From: Bradyrhizobium embrapense
GTDB taxonomy: Bacteria; Pseudomonadota; Alphaproteobacteria; Rhizobiales; Xanthobacteraceae
Reading direction: 5' to 3'
Length of the DNA: 64,000 nt
NCBI RefSeq assembly: GCF_001189235.2
Contig: NZ_LFIP02000003.1
Span: forward strand, 1 to 64,000
In this document: positions 2,902-10,699 of the stretch, one piece after another
Layout: every line of letters starts with the position of its first letter
Numbering within the stretch: position 1 is the stretch's first letter
The notes under the pieces: generated by a model
What the model was told of the DNA's origin: nothing
What the model saw: only the letters and a program-made list of their open reading frames with translations
Database searches by the model: none
Made by a program: the position numbers and the translations under genes

Positions 2902-4059
2902 CTACAAAATCGCGTGCGGCAGGAAGCGCGAAGTGTTGCCGGTGATCGGGTTCTCGTCCTCTCGGATCGAGAGCCCGCAGGGCGTGTGGTCGACCAGCCA
3001 GCTGCCGACCACCGGGTACTGCCCGGAGAAATTCGACAGCGGCGCGAGCGCCTGCTGGATGAAGCCCTCGGCGCCGTAGGGGCCTTGCTCCGCGACCAGC
3101 GTGATGCCGGCGCTGACCAGTTCGACATTGGCGCCCTCACGCGAATAGATCGGCTTGCGCACGAACGAGGTGCCGAGCTGCGCGGCCTGCGGGTCGTCCT
3201 CGAAATAGGCCGGCAGCAGGTTGGGATGATTTGGGAACATTTCCCACAACAGCGGCAGGATGCCCTTGTTGGAGAGGATCGCCTTCCATGGCGGCTCGAT
3301 CCATTGCGTCGGTGCCGTCGAGAGGTTCTTGCCAAACGCGTCGTGGAACATCCACTCCCATGGATAGAGCTTGAACGCGAGCGCGATCGGGCGTTCGTCG
3401 AGGTCGACGAACTGGCCGTCATTGCGCAGCCCGATCTGTTCGATGTCGAGCAGCGTCGTCTTCAGCCCGGCCTGCGCCGCGGTATCCTCGAGATAGGCGA
3501 GCGTGCCGGCGTCCTCGGAATTGCCGGTCAGTCCGGTGAGATGCAGCGGGCGGGTCGCGCCGATCGTCTTCCAGGCCGCGATCAACGCTTCGTGGATCGA
3601 GTTGAACTGGTCGGCGCGCTTCGGGATGATGTTGCGTTCGATTGCCTGTTCGAGCCAGGTCCATTGGAACACCGCGGCCTCGAAGATCGACGTCGGCGTG
3701 TCGGCATTGTATTCGAGCAGCTTGGCTGGGCCGCTGCCGCTGAATTTGAGGTCGAGCCGGCCGTAGAGGCTCGGCTCCTTGCGGCGCCAACTCGCCGCGA
3801 TCATATCCCAAAACGCCTCCGGTATCTTCATCCGGCGCAGATAGCGTTCATCCTTGACCGCACGCCCGGCGAGTTCGAGGCACATCGCGTCGATCTCGCC
3901 GGTCGGCGCCTCGATATCGCGCTCGATCTCGTCGAGCGTGAAGCCGTAATAGGCGCGCTCGTCCCAGTAACGTTCGCCGTCGATGGTGTGGAAGGTGAAG
4001 CCGGCGCTTTCGGCGGTCGCCTGCCAATCGTCGCGCTCGGAACATGCGATGCGTTGCAT
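2902..4059 (-). CDS. Glutathionylspermidine synthase-like ATP-grasp ligase (YjfC/YgiC type)
   Basis: The 385-residue protein matches the length of E. coli YgiC and YjfC and corresponds to the synthetase half of glutathionylspermidine synthetase without the amidase domain. The conserved metal/ATP-site segment EYNADTPT is at 116-123, after the R101 and D103 positions in GRLDLKF. Family members are thought to join an amine or peptide through an acyl phosphate; the true substrate of the YjfC type is not established. It is the third gene of a minus-strand set after a DUF350 membrane protein and a DUF1190-like protein, the same order as yjfL-yjfM-yjfC. There is no signal peptide, so it acts in the cytoplasm. 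Confidence 0.9.
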   Translation of the reverse strand: MQRIACSERDDWQATAESAGFTFHTIDGERYWDERAYYGFTLDEIERDIEAPTGEIDAMCLELAGRAVKDERYLRRMKIPEAFWDMIAASWRRKEPSLYGRLDLKFSGSGPAKLLEYNADTPTSIFEAAVFQWTWLEQAIERNIIPKRADQFNSIHEALIAAWKTIGATRPLHLTGLTGNSEDAGTLAYLEDTAAQAGLKTTLLDIEQIGLRNDGQFVDLDERPIALAFKLYPWEWMFHDAFGKNLSTAPTQWIEPPWKAILSNKGILPLLWEMFPNHPNLLPAYFEDDPQAAQLGTSFVRKPIYSREGANVELVSAGITLVAEQGPYGAEGFIQQALAPLSNFSGQYPVVGSWLVDHTPCGLSIREDENPITGNTSRFLPHAIL

Positions 4060-4101
4060 AAGGGAGTCCGTGATCTTCAGACGATGCGTGTCAGCTCGGT
4101 G

Positions 4102-4524
4102 TCAGCCGCCGCCGAAGCCGAACGCATGCGCAAACGAGCCGAAGCCGCCGCGGCTGACCGACGAAGTTGACGATGAACCCGACGAGGATGAAGAGCCGCC
4201 GGACGAGGAACTGCTGCTGTAGAAGCTGCTGCGCGACGAGCCGCCGCCTCCACCGCTGCCGCCCGATCCGGATGACGAACTGCGCGGCGCGCAATCGGCG
4301 CCGGGCTGCGGGACGGCCGGCGCGGTCACGCCCGCAGGCGTTGGTGGGATGGGCTGGCAATTCTGCCGCGGCATCAGCGCATAGGCGCCGCCGCCAACCG
4401 CGAGCGTGCCCATCACCAGCAGCGCGACATGGTTGGAGCGTTTGGAAGGCGGTTCCAATCGCGGCGGTACCGCCGGCACCACCGGCCGCCGCTTGCCGAA
4501 TTCCGGGTTCGGTTTGCGCGCCAT
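4102..4524 (-). CDS. Small Ser/Gly-rich DUF1190 (YjfM/YgiB)-like membrane-anchored protein
   Basis: The protein has 140 residues. A basic/proline-rich N-terminus leads to one membrane segment (about 33-50), then two cysteines (C56, C78), a low-complexity serine/glycine stretch (about 82-122) and a C-terminal tail with SRGGFGS (124-130). The RGGFG motif resembles the TRGGFG tail of E. coli YgiB as I recall it, and the position between DUF350 and ligase genes matches yjfM. The assignment therefore rests on context plus a short motif, not on overall similarity. The tail could be what the neighbouring ligase modifies, which is inference. It lies 15 nt after the DUF350 gene. Confidence 0.72.
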   Translation of the reverse strand: MARKPNPEFGKRRPVVPAVPPRLEPPSKRSNHVALLVMGTLAVGGGAYALMPRQNCQPIPPTPAGVTAPAVPQPGADCAPRSSSSGSGGSGGGGGSSRSSFYSSSSSSGGSSSSSGSSSTSSVSRGGFGSFAHAFGFGGG

Positions 4525-4539
4525 GGTCAGCTCAATCGC

Positions 4540-4944
4540 TCAGTAGATCATGCAGGCCGCGTTCAGCGCGCCTGCGGCCAGCGAGGACAGCCCGAGCCAG
4601 ATCGCCGCCGCCATCTCGCCGGAGGCGATCCGCGCCGACAGGTTCGGCACCGGGATCTTGACGATGTAGAAGACGATGATCTGCACGATCAGCGCGATGA
4701 TGCTCCAGATCATGCAGTCGATCACATTGGCCGAATGCGCGATGGCGCTGACAACAGGCAGCACGAAGCCGAGCAGGCTGAGGCCGAGCGCAATCGCCGC
4801 CGCCGGATCGTTGTCGCGGATCAGCTGGAATTCGTCATGCGGGGTGACGCGTGTGTAGACGAAGAGGTAGGCGACCACGGCGATCAGCGCTGTGCAGAAA
4901 TAGACCAGGAACGCCGGCAGGCCGGCGAGGGATTGCAGGATCAT
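4540..4944 (-). CDS. DUF350 family inner-membrane protein (YjfL type)
   Basis: The 134-residue protein is very hydrophobic with four likely membrane helices (about 8-30, 47-70, 76-98 and 108-130). The polar first loop TRVTPHDEFQLIRDNDPAAA is the typical DUF350 signature. Function is unknown, but DUF350 genes often accompany DUF1190 and glutathionylspermidine-synthase-like genes, as here, so a membrane role in the same process is likely. It is the first gene of the minus-strand operon. The 185 nt up to the divergent gene at 5130 should hold the promoter. Confidence 0.87.
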   Translation of the reverse strand: MILQSLAGLPAFLVYFCTALIAVVAYLFVYTRVTPHDEFQLIRDNDPAAAIALGLSLLGFVLPVVSAIAHSANVIDCMIWSIIALIVQIIVFYIVKIPVPNLSARIASGEMAAAIWLGLSSLAAGALNAACMIY

Positions 4945-5129: not shown

Positions 5130-5414
5130 ATGTCGCGAATGGGCTCGGTGATCCCGATGACGACCAGCTTTGGCAACGACATCCTGCCGATGTTTCGACC
5201 GGGGGACATCGCCTGCATGGCGCCGAAGGGCGTTCGGCTCGGCGACGCCGACTGGATCTGCGACCCGGCCGGCAATGATGACTTCGCCGATCATGCCAAC
5301 GCACGCCGCGTCTTCGCTGCACTGTCGTCCGGCTTCATGCCGCCCGGTCACCGATGGTCGCAGGACGCGCTCGACACCTATGCGAGCTGGATGGGGGACG
5401 GATTCCAACCTTGA
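5130..5414 (+). CDS. Small FGND-type protein of unknown function
   Basis: The protein has 94 residues, or 85 if the ATG at 5157 is used. It is rich in acidic and aromatic residues with no signal peptide or membrane segment. The pattern FGNDILPMFRPGDIACM, then DDFADHANARRVFAAL, then MPPGHRWSQDALDTYASWM resembles a small, poorly described bacterial family that I recall only by its 'F..DI.PLFR..D...M ... MP....W......F..W' pattern. No catalytic residues can be pointed out. It precedes the CxxCH gene by 49 nt on the same strand and is probably cotranscribed with it. Confidence 0.62.
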   Translation: MSRMGSVIPMTTSFGNDILPMFRPGDIACMAPKGVRLGDADWICDPAGNDDFADHANARRVFAALSSGFMPPGHRWSQDALDTYASWMGDGFQP

Positions 5415-5463
5415 ACGGATTGCAACCTTGAACCCCAACCTTGAATCCAATGTGGAGAGCAAG

Positions 5464-6651
5464 ATGAGAAGATCGATCGACACGCTGCTCGTCTGTGGTC
5501 TGCTGGTGCTTCTCGGGCTTCCGGCTGCGGCGCAATCGCCGCCGAACCCTGCGATGAGCGCGCCGGATCAGGTCGCCTGGCAGCTCTTCATCCAGGCCAA
5601 CACCCGCGCCGGCGGCAGCAATTCGACGTTCGAGACTTGGGCGAGCGATACCGATCTGTTCCAGCCCAATCCGCAGTTCCCGGCCGCAGCGACGCCGCCG
5701 TCGCTGCGGCCGCCGATCCTGCCGCAGGTGGCGCGCGAAGGCGTGCAGCAGAGCGGCGGATTGTTGCCGGCGCTGCCGCCGGGCGCCGCGCAGGGGCAGA
5801 TGGAGGAAACGCGTCACAACAAGCCGACGTTCGATTTCATCGTGCAGAACAATCTCTACAAGCGCTCGGGCGTGAAGGCCGCCTTCGGCAAGCAGCTGTC
5901 GTTCCCGGTCGATTCGATCGAGGTGAAGGGCAATTGGATGCCGGTCAGCGACATTCCGCAATTCACCAACAACAAGGTGACGGTGGCGCAGGTGCCGCAG
6001 CTCTATCACGTCAACAGCGCGGCCGGCGTGCAGTACGCCCTGGTCTCGATGCATGTCATCAGCAAGCAGGTGCCGAACTGGACCTGGGCGACGTTCGAGC
6101 ACCGTTTCAATCCGGGCCGCTGCGACATCATCGGTTGCCGCGATAATTTCGGCGCGCAGACCGCATTCGTGCCGTCGAACCGGATCGCCGGCCAGGGCTA
6201 TCCGGATTGCGTGAAGACGGCCGCACTGACCGCGATGCTGTCGAGCGCGGATATCGATCCCGTCTACAACAACTACTGCCTGAAGGGATCACAGGCCGAT
6301 TTCGTCGACAACGTCGGGCTCGACATCAGGGTCGGCAATTCCGTCACCGAGGACGGCTTCGTCGCGACGTCGTCCTGCATCACCTGTCACGGACGAGCGG
6401 CCTTCAAGGCCGACGGCACGCCGGCCTCGCAGGCGGGATTCCTGTCGTTCGGTCCGAATGGCCCGGTCGCTCCGCTCGGGCCGCTGCTGCCGGAATGGTA
6501 CTGGAAGTTCTCGGGCCAGCCGCCGATCTTCGAAGGCAAGCCGGGCCTCACGCGCATCGCAACGGCTGCGGACTTCGTGTGGTCGATCCCGTTCTGCGCC
6601 TACGACGATACGCAAACTCCGGTACAGCCGACGCCATGTAGCGGCAAGTGA
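5464..6651 (+). CDS. Exported protein with a single CxxCH haem-type motif
   Basis: The protein has 395 residues. The start at 5464 is preceded by GGAGAG and gives a clear signal peptide (MRRSIDTLLVCGLLVLLGLP...AAAQ), so the mature protein is periplasmic or secreted. A single c-type haem attachment motif, CITCH, is at 305-309, within a longer domain with no cytochrome fold that I recognise. Further cysteines at 220, 225, 249 and 272 could form disulfides. The sequence does not match a named family that I know. The sedolisin gene begins 10 nt downstream, suggesting one transcript. Confidence 0.75.
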   Translation: MRRSIDTLLVCGLLVLLGLPAAAQSPPNPAMSAPDQVAWQLFIQANTRAGGSNSTFETWASDTDLFQPNPQFPAAATPPSLRPPILPQVAREGVQQSGGLLPALPPGAAQGQMEETRHNKPTFDFIVQNNLYKRSGVKAAFGKQLSFPVDSIEVKGNWMPVSDIPQFTNNKVTVAQVPQLYHVNSAAGVQYALVSMHVISKQVPNWTWATFEHRFNPGRCDIIGCRDNFGAQTAFVPSNRIAGQGYPDCVKTAALTAMLSSADIDPVYNNYCLKGSQADFVDNVGLDIRVGNSVTEDGFVATSSCITCHGRAAFKADGTPASQAGFLSFGPNGPVAPLGPLLPEWYWKFSGQPPIFEGKPGLTRIATAADFVWSIPFCAYDDTQTPVQPTPCSGK

Positions 6652-6661
6652 GATCGCAGCG

Positions 6662-8239
6662 ATGGCGGGCGCCTCCGAGCGCAGGGTTCCGCTAGCCGGC
6701 AGCAACCGCGCCGCGCCCGTCGGTGCGACGCTGGTCGGCGATGTCGATCCCGATGGGCGGATCCCCATCGTGGTCTATGTGAAGCGGCGCACCCCCGACA
6801 AGTTTGCGCCGGGCAGCGCCGGTGATCTTGCCCGGCTCGCCGGGCCGATCACGCGGCACCAGCTCGCGACGGAGCGTCACCGCAGTCATGCCCGCGCCAT
6901 CGCCCGCGTGGTGCGGCTGGCGGCCGAGCGAGGCTTGACCGTCGGCCGCAGCGATCCGGTCGCGCGCACGGTCGAGCTGCAAGGCACCGCGCGGCAGATG
7001 GCCGAGATCTTCGGCGCGACGCTGCGCACCTACCACGACGGCGAGCGCACGTTTCGCGCCCGCGTCGGCGGCCTGACGGTGCCGGCCGAGATCGCGCCAT
7101 GGACCCGCGCCATTCTCGGCTTCGATCAGCGGCCGCTGCGGACCAGGACGCCGCTTGTGAGGGCCGAGGCCGACACGGGCAGCGGCAGCGGACTGTGGCC
7201 GACCGACGTCGCGGCGCTCTACGGCATTCCGCTCGATCGCGACGTGTCGTCGATCTGCGTCGGCGTCATCGCGCTCGGTGGCGGCTATCTCGCGAGCGAT
7301 CTCGCCATGGCGGTGGCCGGCATGGACCGGCCGCCGCCGGTGGTCGTCAACGTGCCGCCGGCCGGCAATGATGGCAGCTTCGGCAGCAACGATGTCGCCG
7401 ATCAGGAGATCGCGCTCGATCTCCAGGTGCTCGCCGGCCTGCTGCCGAAGGGCAAGATCGCGGTCTACTTTGCCGAGAACTCCGCCGCCGGTCTCACCGG
7501 CGCGATCCATCAGGCGGTGTTCGATGAGAAGCACGCGCCGCAGGTAATCTCCGTCAGCTGGGGTAGCGCCGAGAAATACTGGACCGAGCCGGGGCGCGAC
7601 GCGATGCAGGCGGTGCTGGCCGATGCCGCGCGGCTGCGGGTCAGCGTGCTGTTCGCCTCGGGTGATCAGCTCGCGACCAGCGGCCTGACCGACGGCAAAG
7701 TCCATGTCTGGTTTCCCGCCTCGAGCCCCTATGCGACGAGCTGCGGCGGCACCCAGCCCGTGGGCAATGGGGCGGCCGCCGCGGAGGCGGTCTGGAACGC
7801 CGGCGCGGTCGGCACCGGCGGCGGCATCAGCGACGCGTTTCCCGTCCCCGACTATCAGTTGCATGTGACGCTGCCGGAATCGCAGAACGACGGCGCCATC
7901 AGGCGCGGCGTGCCCGATGTCGCCTGCGCGGCGTCGGCGAGCCCGGGCTACCGCATCATCGTCAACGGACAGGCAATGGCGATGAGCGGGACCAGCGCCG
8001 CGACGCCGCTATGGGCCGCGCTGGTCGCAATAGCTGTCGCCGCGCGCGGCGAGCAGATCGGCTTGCTCAACGCGGCGCTGTATTCCAACCCTGGCGCGTT
8101 CCGTGCGGTCGTGCAGGGCAATAACCGCGTCGGCGGCAGGGGTTACGATGCCGGCCCCGGTTGGAACGCCTGCACCGGGCTCGGCGTTCCGAAGGGCGCG
8201 GATCTGCTTGCCGCCTTGACCGCGATCCCGGTGGCGTAA
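6662..8239 (+). CDS. Sedolisin (S53, pro-kumamolisin type) serine-carboxyl peptidase
   Basis: The 525-residue protein has a prodomain (about 30-165) followed by the catalytic domain. The sedolisin triad and oxyanion residue can be read: E249 and D253 in DQEIALDLQ, D335 in FASGDQ, and S445 in MSGTSAATP. The C-terminal calcium-site region appears as YDAGPGWNACTGLG. Sedolisins are acid-active endopeptidases that mature by self-cleavage. Unusually, no N-terminal signal peptide is seen from the ATG at 6662, and earlier starts in this frame overlap the preceding gene. Export by another route or cytoplasmic action is open. It ends the 5130-8239 block. Confidence 0.92.
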   Translation: MAGASERRVPLAGSNRAAPVGATLVGDVDPDGRIPIVVYVKRRTPDKFAPGSAGDLARLAGPITRHQLATERHRSHARAIARVVRLAAERGLTVGRSDPVARTVELQGTARQMAEIFGATLRTYHDGERTFRARVGGLTVPAEIAPWTRAILGFDQRPLRTRTPLVRAEADTGSGSGLWPTDVAALYGIPLDRDVSSICVGVIALGGGYLASDLAMAVAGMDRPPPVVVNVPPAGNDGSFGSNDVADQEIALDLQVLAGLLPKGKIAVYFAENSAAGLTGAIHQAVFDEKHAPQVISVSWGSAEKYWTEPGRDAMQAVLADAARLRVSVLFASGDQLATSGLTDGKVHVWFPASSPYATSCGGTQPVGNGAAAAEAVWNAGAVGTGGGISDAFPVPDYQLHVTLPESQNDGAIRRGVPDVACAASASPGYRIIVNGQAMAMSGTSAATPLWAALVAIAVAARGEQIGLLNAALYSNPGAFRAVVQGNNRVGGRGYDAGPGWNACTGLGVPKGADLLAALTAIPVA

Positions 8240-8304: not shown

Positions 8305-9006
8305 TCAGGCGGGAATGCGTTCGTCAGCCTCGTGCGGCTCGCGCAGCACGTAGCCGCGGCCCCACACGGTCTCGATGAAATTGCGGCCCTCGGAGGCGTT
8401 GGCGAGCTTCTTGCGGAGCTTGCAGATGAAGACGTCGATGATCTTCAGCTCCGGCTCATCCATGCCGCCGTAGAGATGGTTGAGGAACATTTCCTTGGTG
8501 AGCGTGGTGCCCTTGCGGAGCGAGAGCAGCTCCAGCATCTGGTATTCCTTGCCGGTGAGGTGGACGCGCTGACCGCCGACCTCGACCGTCTTGGTGTCCA
8601 GATTGACCACGAGATCGCCGGTCTGGATCACCGACTGGGCGTGACCCTTGGAGCGGCGCACGATCGCGTGGATGCGGGCGACCAGCTCGTCCTTGTGGAA
8701 GGGTTTGGTCATGTAGTCGTCGGCGCCGACGCCGAGACCCTTGACCTTGTCCTCGATGCCGGCGAGGCCGGAGAGGATCAGAATGGGAGTCTTGATCTTC
8801 GAAACCCGGAGCTGCTTGAGCACGTCGTAGCCGGACATGTCGGGCAGGTTGAGGTCGAGCAGGATGATGTCGTAGTCGTAAAGCTTGCCGAGGTCGACGC
8901 CTTCTTCACCGAGATCCGTCGTGTAGACGTTGAAACTCTCGGATTTGAGCATCAATTCGATCGACTGCGCGACGGCGCTATCATCTTCAATCAGCAAAAC
9001 GCGCAT
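8305..9006 (-). CDS. ctrA: CtrA, master cell-cycle response regulator
   Basis: The 233-residue OmpR-class regulator has an N-terminal receiver with phospho-acceptor D51 ([15 protein letters not shown]) and K in [11 protein letters not shown]. The C-terminal winged-helix domain contains [12 protein letters not shown] and [10 protein letters not shown]. The wording is that of alphaproteobacterial CtrA rather than a generic OmpR protein. CtrA activates flagellar and division genes and, in Caulobacter, represses replication initiation. The gene is divergent from fliI. Its upstream region holds five GANTC sites and a TTAACCAT half-site, which fits methylation-dependent and autoregulated expression. 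Confidence 0.96.
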
Positions 9007-9083
9007 GCCAGTCCCCTATAGTCGCCGCTCCGGGCGTCAGGTCGGCCGCACTTGCGGCACTCACAAAACGCCTTTGAACAACT

Positions 9084-9252
9084 GATTCGGATCCTGACGA
9101 GATATGGTTAACAAAAACTGATTCCTCGACGCAAGCTCTAACCGTGCAATTTTTGTCGAATCGCCCTAAGATATTGCGTAGAAGAAGCTTTTCCTAACCG
9201 CGCTCGTTCAGTTTCCACATTAAGAGCCGGGCCTAACCGACTCTCGCGACTC
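9084..9252. promoter_or_regulatory. GANTC cluster in the ctrA-fliI intergenic region
   Basis: The 367 nt between ctrA and fliI contain five GANTC sites, the target of the CcrM methyltransferase: GATTC at 9084 and 9120, GAATC at 9158, GACTC at 9239 and 9248. Three CTAACCG direct repeats lie at 9138, 9194 and 9233. The region is AT-richer than its surroundings and is the promoter region for both genes. Confidence 0.7.
9104..9111 (-). promoter_or_regulatory. ctrA: CtrA half-site upstream of ctrA
   Basis: The minus strand reads TTAACCAT about 100 nt ahead of the ctrA ATG. This matches the extended CtrA half-site known from Caulobacter. The partner half seven bases away (ATCA) is poor, so this would be a single half-site for autoregulation. 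Confidence 0.5.
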
Positions 9253-9319
9253 GCCCTTCTTCTGATGGGCGAGCGACCTCAGTCACCAAAGACAGTGACG
9301 CAATGATTAATGATGCGGG

Positions 9320-9334
9320 TAAACACGAAGTTAA
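9320..9334 (+). promoter_or_regulatory. fliI: Candidate CtrA box upstream of fliI
   Basis: TAAA-N7-TTAA has one mismatch from the CtrA consensus TTAA-N7-TTAA. It ends 39 nt before the chosen fliI ATG, a plausible distance for a CtrA-activated promoter with a short leader. Confidence 0.4.
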
Positions 9335-9373
9335 GCGGCCGGAGCAAAATTGCCGAAACTTAAGGTTTTCGCA

Positions 9374-10699
9374 ATGAAGGCACTCGCGGAGCAGATCGGC
9401 GACATCGACGGCGTCAATATTTATGGCCGCGTGGTCGGCGTCCGCGGGCTGATGGTCGAGATCGCCGGTCCCATTCATGCGATGTCGGTCGGCGCGCGCA
9501 TCGTGATCGACGTCGGCGCCGGCCGCTCCATCCCGGCCGAGGTGATCGGCTTCTCCGGCGAGAACGCTGTGGTGATGCCGTTCGGCGGGCTCGAGGGCGT
9601 CAGGCGCGGCTGCCGCGCCGTGATCGCCAACGCGGCGAGCCAGGTGCGGCCGTCGCCGGCCTGGCTCGGCCGCGTCGTCAACGCGATGGGCGAACCGATC
9701 GACGGCAAGGGGCCGCTGGTCCAGGGCGCTTCGCCGATGTCCTACCGCAACTCGCCGCCCCCGGCACATTCGCGCAAGCGTGTGGGCCCGCCGCTCGACC
9801 TCGGCGTGCGCGGTCTCAATACTTTCCTGACCTGCTGCCGCGGCCAGCGGCTCGGCATCTTCGCCGGCTCCGGTGTCGGCAAGTCGGTGCTGCTGTCGAT
9901 GCTGGCACGCAATGTCGATGCCGCGATCTCGGTGATCGGGCTGATCGGCGAACGCGGCCGCGAGGTGCAGGAATTCCTCCAGGAGGATCTCGGCGAGGAG
10001 GGGCTGGCGCGCTCGGTCGTGGTGGTCGCCACCTCGGACGAGCCGGCCCTGATGCGGCGCCAGGCGGCCTACCTCACGCTCGCCATCGCGGAATATTTCC
10101 GCGACGAGGACCAGGACGTGCTGTGCCTGATGGATTCGGTGACGCGCTTTGCGATGGCGCAGCGCGAGATCGGGCTCTCGGCGGGCGAGCCGCCGACTGC
10201 CAAGGGCTACACGCCGACCGTGTTCACCGAACTGCCGAAGCTGCTCGAGCGGGCAGGGCCGGGCACCGGCGAGGGCACCATCACCGCGATCTTCACCGTG
10301 CTGGTCGACGGCGACGACCACAACGAGCCGATCGCTGACGCGGTGCGCGGCATCCTCGACGGCCACATCGTGATGCAGCGGGCGATCGCCGAGCGCGGCC
10401 GCTACCCCGCGGTCAACATCCTCAAGTCGGTTTCCCGCACCATGCCGCGGTCCGCCGACCCTGAGTTCCTGCCCTTCATCAACAAGGCGCGGCAGGTGAT
10501 GGCGACCTATGCCGACATGGAGGAACTGATCCGGCTCGGCGCCTACCGGCCGGGCTCCAGCCCGGAGGTCGACGAGGCGATCCGGCTGCACGAGCCGCTG
10601 GAGGCCTTCCTGCGCCAGGCCAAGGACGAAGCGACCAGTCTGGGCGATGGCTACCGGCAACTCGCTCAAATCCTGTCGGGTTTGGAAACGGAACGCTAA
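9374..10699 (+). CDS. fliI: FliI, flagellar type III export ATPase
   Basis: The 441-residue protein is homologous to the F1-ATPase beta chain. The P-loop GSGVGKS is at 165-171, Walker B is in [10 protein letters not shown], and the characteristic [10 protein letters not shown] and [11 protein letters not shown] segments follow. FliI hydrolyses ATP at the base of the flagellar export gate, together with FliH and FliJ. The ATG at 9374 is preferred; a TTG at 9350 in the same frame would add eight residues. It is followed by fliJ, and a candidate CtrA box lies just upstream. Confidence 0.95.

Follow-up and report, generated by a model that had tools for sequence, protein, structure and literature searches.

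The stretch of Bradyrhizobium embrapense DNA analysed here (contig NZ_LFIP02000003.1, positions 1 to 64,000, forward strand; hereafter the window, 64,000 nucleotides (nt) long) carries a block of three genes that encode a small FGND-type protein, an exported protein with a CxxCH haem-type motif (the CxxCH protein) and a sedolisin, a peptidase of family S53 (Table 1). A first-pass annotation of this DNA had described three close genes on one strand, and the three open reading frames (ORFs) do lie on the forward strand, with a gap of 49 nt between the FGND and CxxCH genes and of 10 nt between the CxxCH and sedolisin genes. The start that had been given for FGND, at 5130, has to be moved: the Met encoded there is not conserved (it is Lys in locus L029 and Ile in L022), whereas the window and all 10 aligned Bradyrhizobium copies share the Met at 5157, and for this reason the start is likely 5157 and the protein is probably 85 amino acids (aa) long. 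In relatives, the first gap measures 19-49 nt (9 loci including the window) and the second 7-13 nt (12 loci including the window). Compared with the window, the ratio of non-synonymous to synonymous substitution rates is 0.04-0.24 for FGND (8 homologues), 0.08-0.19 for the CxxCH gene (11 homologues) and 0.14-0.37 for the sedolisin gene (11 homologues), and purifying selection acts on all three genes. A scan returned no promoter and two terminators, 2.2 being expected, none of them above chance. Among the papers listed by literature searches, none has a title describing the three-gene block; one of them, PMC2964644, names a hypothetical secreted protein of R. etli with a serine-peptidase domain.

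Table 1. Genes of the block, with positions in the window and the residues discussed in the text
Gene product	Position	Strand	Length	Features
FGND-type small protein	5157..5414 (ORF from 5130)	+	85 aa	no CxxCH; no apparent signal peptide
Putative exported P460/c'-beta-like c-type cytochrome (CxxCH protein)	5464..6651	+	395 aa	K155, H197, W206, C305-x-x-C308-H309
Sedolisin (S53, prokumamolisin-like) with prodomain	6662..8239	+	525 aa	E249, D253, D335, S445

The new point of this work concerns the second gene, whose haem domain is most likely a divergent relative of the cytochromes P460 and c'-beta with an unusual pair of invariant residues. Cytochrome P460 is a type of enzyme that turns hydroxylamine into nitrous oxide. 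The gene product had been described as a secreted protein with one haem-type motif in an unknown domain; a Sec-type N-terminus is recognised by inspection, the CxxCH motif is single, and the domain still belongs to no Pfam or NCBIfam family, although profile comparison now points to a P460-like assignment. Eleven residues are invariant in 30 of 30 diverse relatives (P73, K155, H197, W206, W208, F211, Y271, E296, C305, C308 and H309), and K155, H197, W206, C305 and H309 are present in all 46 rows of a family alignment that includes near-identical Bradyrhizobium rows and from which the partial sequences L038, L039, L070, L076 and L077 were left out.

In L034, a locus from another genus of the family, a 1000-aa multihaem cytochrome (L034:104-3106, reverse strand) encoded two genes past a CxxCH-sedolisin pair matches the P460 domain, and because of this match the CxxCH family was compared with cytochrome P460. 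The template set consisted of 24 PF16694 proteins from genomes of the class, out of 30 fetched loci (L078-L107); those dropped were L083 (no clean match), L091, L093 and L105 (internal stops), and L106 and L107 (weaker). The uncut full-length family profile matched this set with an E value of 0.003 over 23 columns at the motif FPxDSIEVK, and none of 60 column shuffles scored as high. For a second alignment, made of the 30 diverse members, the E value was 0.004 (21 columns); the local matches that it gave separately fall on the Lys, Trp and CxxCH motifs, which follow one another as in P460. With relaxed gap costs a single alignment of 132 columns was obtained; its score was 49.6, and none of 60 shuffles exceeded 28.6. 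When the insertion columns were removed with three different cuts, the local probabilities were 88, 83 and 45%, and in each test 0 of 40 shuffles were as high. Three further cuts gave 84-93% against all templates and 93-94% against a Lys-type subset, which was defined by a crude pattern (4 of the 24 proteins) so that other Lys-type proteins fell in the non-Lys set; the highest of 30 shuffles was 21.7 compared with at least 29 observed, and reversed templates gave 10.8-14.0. Probabilities of 82.6-93.7% came from cuts that end at 318-335 or keep the last motif alone, with the full and Lys-type sets. Finally, when the 30 members were scanned singly in Pfam, PF16694 was the commonest match, though a sub-threshold one, and in L062 it covers residues 194-267 (E 0.011), a segment in which all three motifs lie, with the Lys at 213, the His at 248 and the Trp at 257.

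A number of results weigh against the relation with P460. The motifs were in view when the cuts were set, and for this reason the claim rests first on the uncut results; the uncut default alignments, in turn, cover only 21-23 columns, and another relaxed-gap setting reported only 7. One of 60 shuffles equalled the score of the segment 105-218 taken by itself, the value of 45% belongs to the cut that keeps 290-380, the first three cuts gave 51, 42 and 36% in global mode, and the three further cuts gave 51-73% against the non-Lys templates. No Pfam or NCBIfam model matches the CxxCH protein of the window above its cut-off and this protein has no P460 match; PF16694 was matched by 2 of the 30 members, the best score being 16.6 bits with a cut-off of 27. 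No P460 entry is among the matches listed from a search of the PDB with the family profile. The structure prediction that was run for the haem protein (14 sequences) gave a poor model, with a mean predicted local distance difference test (pLDDT) of 39.5, and the fold search made with it had no hit with an E value under 0.3. The protein is more than twice the length of the P460 domain, and at the position of Gly73 of McP460, five residues before the Lys (PMC6427953), it has D150, the 46 rows including 14 with Gly and 17 with Asp. For comparison, the E value between two subsets of true P460 proteins is 1.9e-27, from which it follows that the relation is a distant one. Outside the superfamily models, one weak match of unassigned function was obtained in PHROGs, on the Trp motif (E 2.5e-4).

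The sub-threshold Pfam matches, the lack of a P460 match in the PDB profile search and the poor model would also suit a c-type cytochrome of some other fold, whose short Lys, Trp and CxxCH motifs are like those of P460 by coincidence. We regard this as improbable in view of the order of the motifs, the shuffle and reversed-template controls, and the fact that the PF16694 match of L062 runs through the Lys, His and Trp motifs. The CxxCH family is thus quite likely a divergent and enlarged branch of the cytochrome P460/c'-beta superfamily, an assignment that is a strong inference and not a proof, since no Pfam cut-off is reached and the structure prediction failed. With cytochrome P460 (PF16694; 2je3, 6hiu, 6amg) the CxxCH protein shares the Lys-Trp-CxxCH order, a Lys at the cross-link position and an export signal-like N-terminus; it differs in its 395 aa with long insertions, in having a distal His and not Glu or Asp, in the Asp that takes the place of Gly73, and in scoring under the Pfam cut-off. 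With cytochrome c'-beta (6hih, 7s5o) it shares the motifs of the superfamily and a non-carboxylate distal residue, but it keeps the Lys that c'-beta has replaced. Outside the window, the same genome contains two genuine PF16694 P460 genes that score far above the cut-off (G000:C1:622011-622382 and 544754-545122).

The active-site positions were located through McCP-beta, in which Phe61 and Gly82 are the counterparts of the cross-link Lys and the distal carboxylate (PMC11928373), and for which Met84, Thr94, Trp97 and His123 are also named (PMC6427953). When the residues of the 6hih chain are numbered with an offset of 20, F61, G82, M84, T94, W97 and H123 are recovered, and on this basis the distal position is four residues before the Lys/Arg of VMVK. 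In the alignment, K155 falls on the cross-link Lys position and H197 on the distal position of G82, Glu96 and Asp102, where the carboxylates of NeP460 (Glu96) and McP460 (Asp102) are replaced by His in 46 of 46 rows. The distal carboxylate would mark activity and not membership, given that NsP460, which is cross-linked yet inactive, lacks it (PMC11928373). If the superfamily relation is accepted, the presence of a Lys-haem cross-link is about an even matter.

A distal His is a peroxidase-like feature, and it counts for a reading in which the CxxCH protein would be a P460-related peroxidase or nitric oxide binder without a Lys-haem bond, the His acting as in peroxidases or capping a gas-binding haem. 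According to PMC11928373, superfamily members with a polar distal residue and no Lys bond have peroxidase-like activity, an example being one that lacks the Lys and has a distal Arg; the text of this review uses neither the term "distal histidine" nor "distal His". Against this reading, the Lys is invariant in the family and the corresponding Lys70 suppresses peroxidase-like activity in NeP460 (PMC11928373), and we consider it unlikely. The presence of the Lys together with a distal base would by the same logic favour a P460-type oxidation, in which the His would serve as the proton acceptor.

The third gene had been read as a sedolisin with a full triad and without a signal peptide, and both features were borne out. 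The protein matches PF09286 with 35.4 bits (cut-off 23.5), its residues 6-520 match prokumamolisin (1t1e) at E 2.7e-92, and the E-D-S triad and the oxyanion Asp (E249, D253, D335 and S445) are present in 15 of 15 aligned sedolisin sequences; no signal peptide is apparent by inspection. By its sequence, it is a complete zymogen of the prokumamolisin type, and the window gene is the one match to the sedolisin prodomain in the whole 8.27-Mb genome. The absence of a signal peptide may not be odd, because the N-terminal extent resembles that of the crystallised prokumamolisin chain: the match begins at residue 6 of the sedolisin and residue 12 of 1t1e. The window protein therefore shares with kumamolisin the prodomain, the triad, the oxyanion Asp and a similar N-terminal extent; it differs in being encoded beside a haem protein, and its activity in acid is a prediction.

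The association between the genes was followed across relatives, using genome sets and named contigs whose counts overlap and cannot be added. A match to the CxxCH protein was found in 57 of 265 Bradyrhizobium genomes. In the 30 best-scoring loci (29 examined from these genomes, plus the window), a sedolisin gene lies downstream in 28 and FGND is present in 19; nine of the 28 sedolisin-bearing loci lack FGND. Of the 13 named loci that have a close relative of the CxxCH protein, 11 are from Bradyrhizobium. Outside this clade the CxxCH-sedolisin pair occurs in Rhizobium sp. CB3171, together with FGND and a multicopper oxidase, and it is also found on a plasmid of B. barranii and in L034. The first-pass annotation had named, as what would refute its reading, that homologues of the CxxCH protein never stand beside a sedolisin or FGND-type gene; the neighbourhood analysis disposes of this, given that both are found there repeatedly. 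As a three-gene unit the block is recurrent, but FGND is not an obligatory part of it and the clan of the peptidase varies, with S8 in L061 and L064 and M4 in L063.

The CxxCH family is also present on plasmids of Rhizobium, Sinorhizobium, Mesorhizobium, Bradyrhizobium, Azospirillum and Paracoccus (43 records, 33 of them typed as conjugative). In B. septentrionale a family member lies beside genes for a tyrosinase and for an S8 peptidase, and in S. meliloti beside genes for a tyrosinase and for an M4 peptidase with a terminal cytochrome c domain; in M. huakuii an S8 peptidase and a caspase-like gene stand beside the family member, after luxR- and luxI-type genes. Near other members there are a tyrosinase and weak S8-like matches (S. 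medicae), FGND and a trypsin-like protein under the Pfam cut-off (R. ruizarguesonis), a cytochrome c (Bradyrhizobium sp. 187) and a Rieske-domain protein (L036), and in L060 a true cytochrome c gene follows the family gene. In the distant loci, that is, the 30 diverse family rows minus the window and L030, a clear S53, S8 or M4 neighbour was found in at least 6 of 28 (L034, L053, L054, L061, L063 and L064) and a copper oxidase in at least 4 of 28 (L053, L061, L063 and L074), these counts being lower bounds on account of short contigs, incomplete plasmid gene tables and a scan limited to some of the neighbours. Many relatives, for example the Rhizobium plasmid loci, show neither peptidase nor oxidase nearby, which speaks against a redox-plus-proteolysis unit as a general rule; the linkage is, for this reason, recurrent but not general.

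Some of these neighbours deserve a description of their own. The M4 metallopeptidases of Sinorhizobium (L063:5824-7983 and L075:5825-7978) carry a C-terminal cytochrome c domain, recognised as PF13442 in L063 and as the same stretch by tblastn in L075, and their genes are directly downstream of the P460-like gene and the tyrosinase gene. In L071, a gene for a GMC oxidoreductase (8447-10072, reverse strand) overlaps the start of the P460-like gene by a few bases, an arrangement as if the cytochrome were the electron-transfer subunit of the oxidoreductase. L040 (139-2403, reverse strand) and L041 (6415-7659) encode, after the P460-like gene, proteins that are about 51% identical and have no Pfam match; that of L040 has 754 aa and its L041 counterpart ends at the contig edge.

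The redox neighbours (multicopper oxidase, tyrosinase, GMC oxidoreductase, Rieske protein, multihaem cytochrome and cytochrome c) would be in keeping with a P460-related electron carrier with bis-His coordination, H197 being the sixth haem ligand, that serves a secreted oxidase such as a tyrosinase, a multicopper oxidase or a GMC oxidoreductase and that remained in Bradyrhizobium once this oxidase had been lost or had changed place. This seems to us quite unlikely, since a copper oxidase was found at just four of the 28 distant loci, none adjoins the block in the window, and the invariance of K155 (46 of 46) would be unneeded. Two functions proposed earlier fared no better: no support was found for a peptidase that matures or degrades the exported haem protein, and a role in anti-phage defence was rejected, as none of the three proteins matched a known defence protein model in PADLOC-DB.

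Regarding the first gene, FGND has no family in Pfam, NCBIfam, PADLOC or PHROGs, its single Pfam match (E 0.18) being far under the cut-off. It is conserved over its whole length among homologues, it lacks CxxCH, and at the corresponding place the Bradyrhizobium copies have D-I-x-C-M. Its second half resembles the Met-loop half of PF13442, a family of small c-type cytochrome domains, in a faint match (E 0.004, probability 8.5%, 27 columns), a tentative relation at most; for a cytochrome c fold, which was considered, there is no more than this short and weak profile match, and the CxxCH motif is missing. The structure model (10 sequences) has a mean pLDDT of 54.6. With FGND as the query, the gene was found in 3 of 248 genomes of the family, and in the three cases a CxxCH-family gene is directly downstream; a seven-row FGND profile matched, among 299 genomes of the phylum, its own genome only. 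A plasmid search with two FGND queries gave five places in five records (two of Rhizobium, two of B. septentrionale and one of Embleya), and the four Rhizobium and B. septentrionale records are also among the plasmid matches of the CxxCH family. In the Embleya (Actinobacterial) plasmid, the FGND-type domain starts an ORF of 166 aa (L108:4986-5486), and no CxxCH-family or P460-like gene lies within 5 kb of it. FGND is broken in L027 (5645-6091; frameshift near the end) and in L030 (4440-4688; early stop), whereas the cytochrome and sedolisin genes are open in both. We infer that FGND is a small haem-less partner of unassigned fold, an accessory that the cytochrome-peptidase pair can dispense with. 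A peptide-modification system, in which FGND would be the precursor, the haem protein its modifying enzyme and the sedolisin the cutting peptidase, draws on the position of a small gene immediately ahead of the haem gene, seen in several genera, the peptidase that follows and the oxidases of related clusters, but is very improbable given that FGND is conserved along its length and has no leader, is missing, frameshifted or shortened in the loci mentioned, and has its relative in Embleya at the start of a longer protein away from any P460-like gene.

The explanation that we favour, tentatively and with a little less than even confidence, is that the block encodes an accessory exported unit for redox chemistry plus proteolysis, built on a new branch of the P460/c'-beta superfamily that oxidises a small substrate of the N-OH type. 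According to this proposal, the CxxCH protein would be translocated by Sec, gain haem c in the periplasm and fold around a beta-sheet core of the P460 type that has long insertions. K155 would be placed at the edge of the porphyrin, where it may form the Lys-haem cross-link, and H197 would take the position of the catalytic Glu/Asp over the iron and relay protons, a role that would make the oxidation of a small N-OH-type substrate the most likely reaction; the choice of any specific substrate would be doubtful. The sedolisin zymogen would become active only in acid surroundings outside the cytoplasm, after export by a route not seen here, and act on some protein, with FGND as the dispensable accessory.

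It is possible, although somewhat unlikely, that these proteins constitute an undescribed class of P460: exported cytochromes of about 400 aa with a Lys-cross-linked haem and a distal His for acid-base catalysis, encoded by chromosomes and conjugative plasmids of rhizobia, in some cases accompanied by peptidases and copper oxidases of their own, and carrying out an oxidation of N-oxides or of phenols or proteins that would be new to the superfamily. If true, a branch from root-nodule bacteria with both the cross-link Lys and a distal His would provide a natural test of the roles of the two residues, and a chemical role would be gained for a family that has no Pfam or NCBIfam match above the cut-off. 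Cytochrome P460 has been proposed to contribute to the emission of nitric and nitrous oxide by nitrifying bacteria (PMC11928373). The link with peptidases recurs for three families of these (S53, S8 and M4).

Downstream of the block, the window has genes that, judged by their translations, are ctrA- and fliI-like, and the block is followed immediately by ctrA in 10 of 11 named Bradyrhizobium loci, other genes intervening in L031. Upstream, on the opposite strand, the window has in series a glutathionylspermidine-synthase-like gene, a Ser/Gly-rich gene and a DUF350 gene (2902-4944), and the three are found upstream of the block in 10 of the 11 named Bradyrhizobium loci, while L030 has the first gene only.

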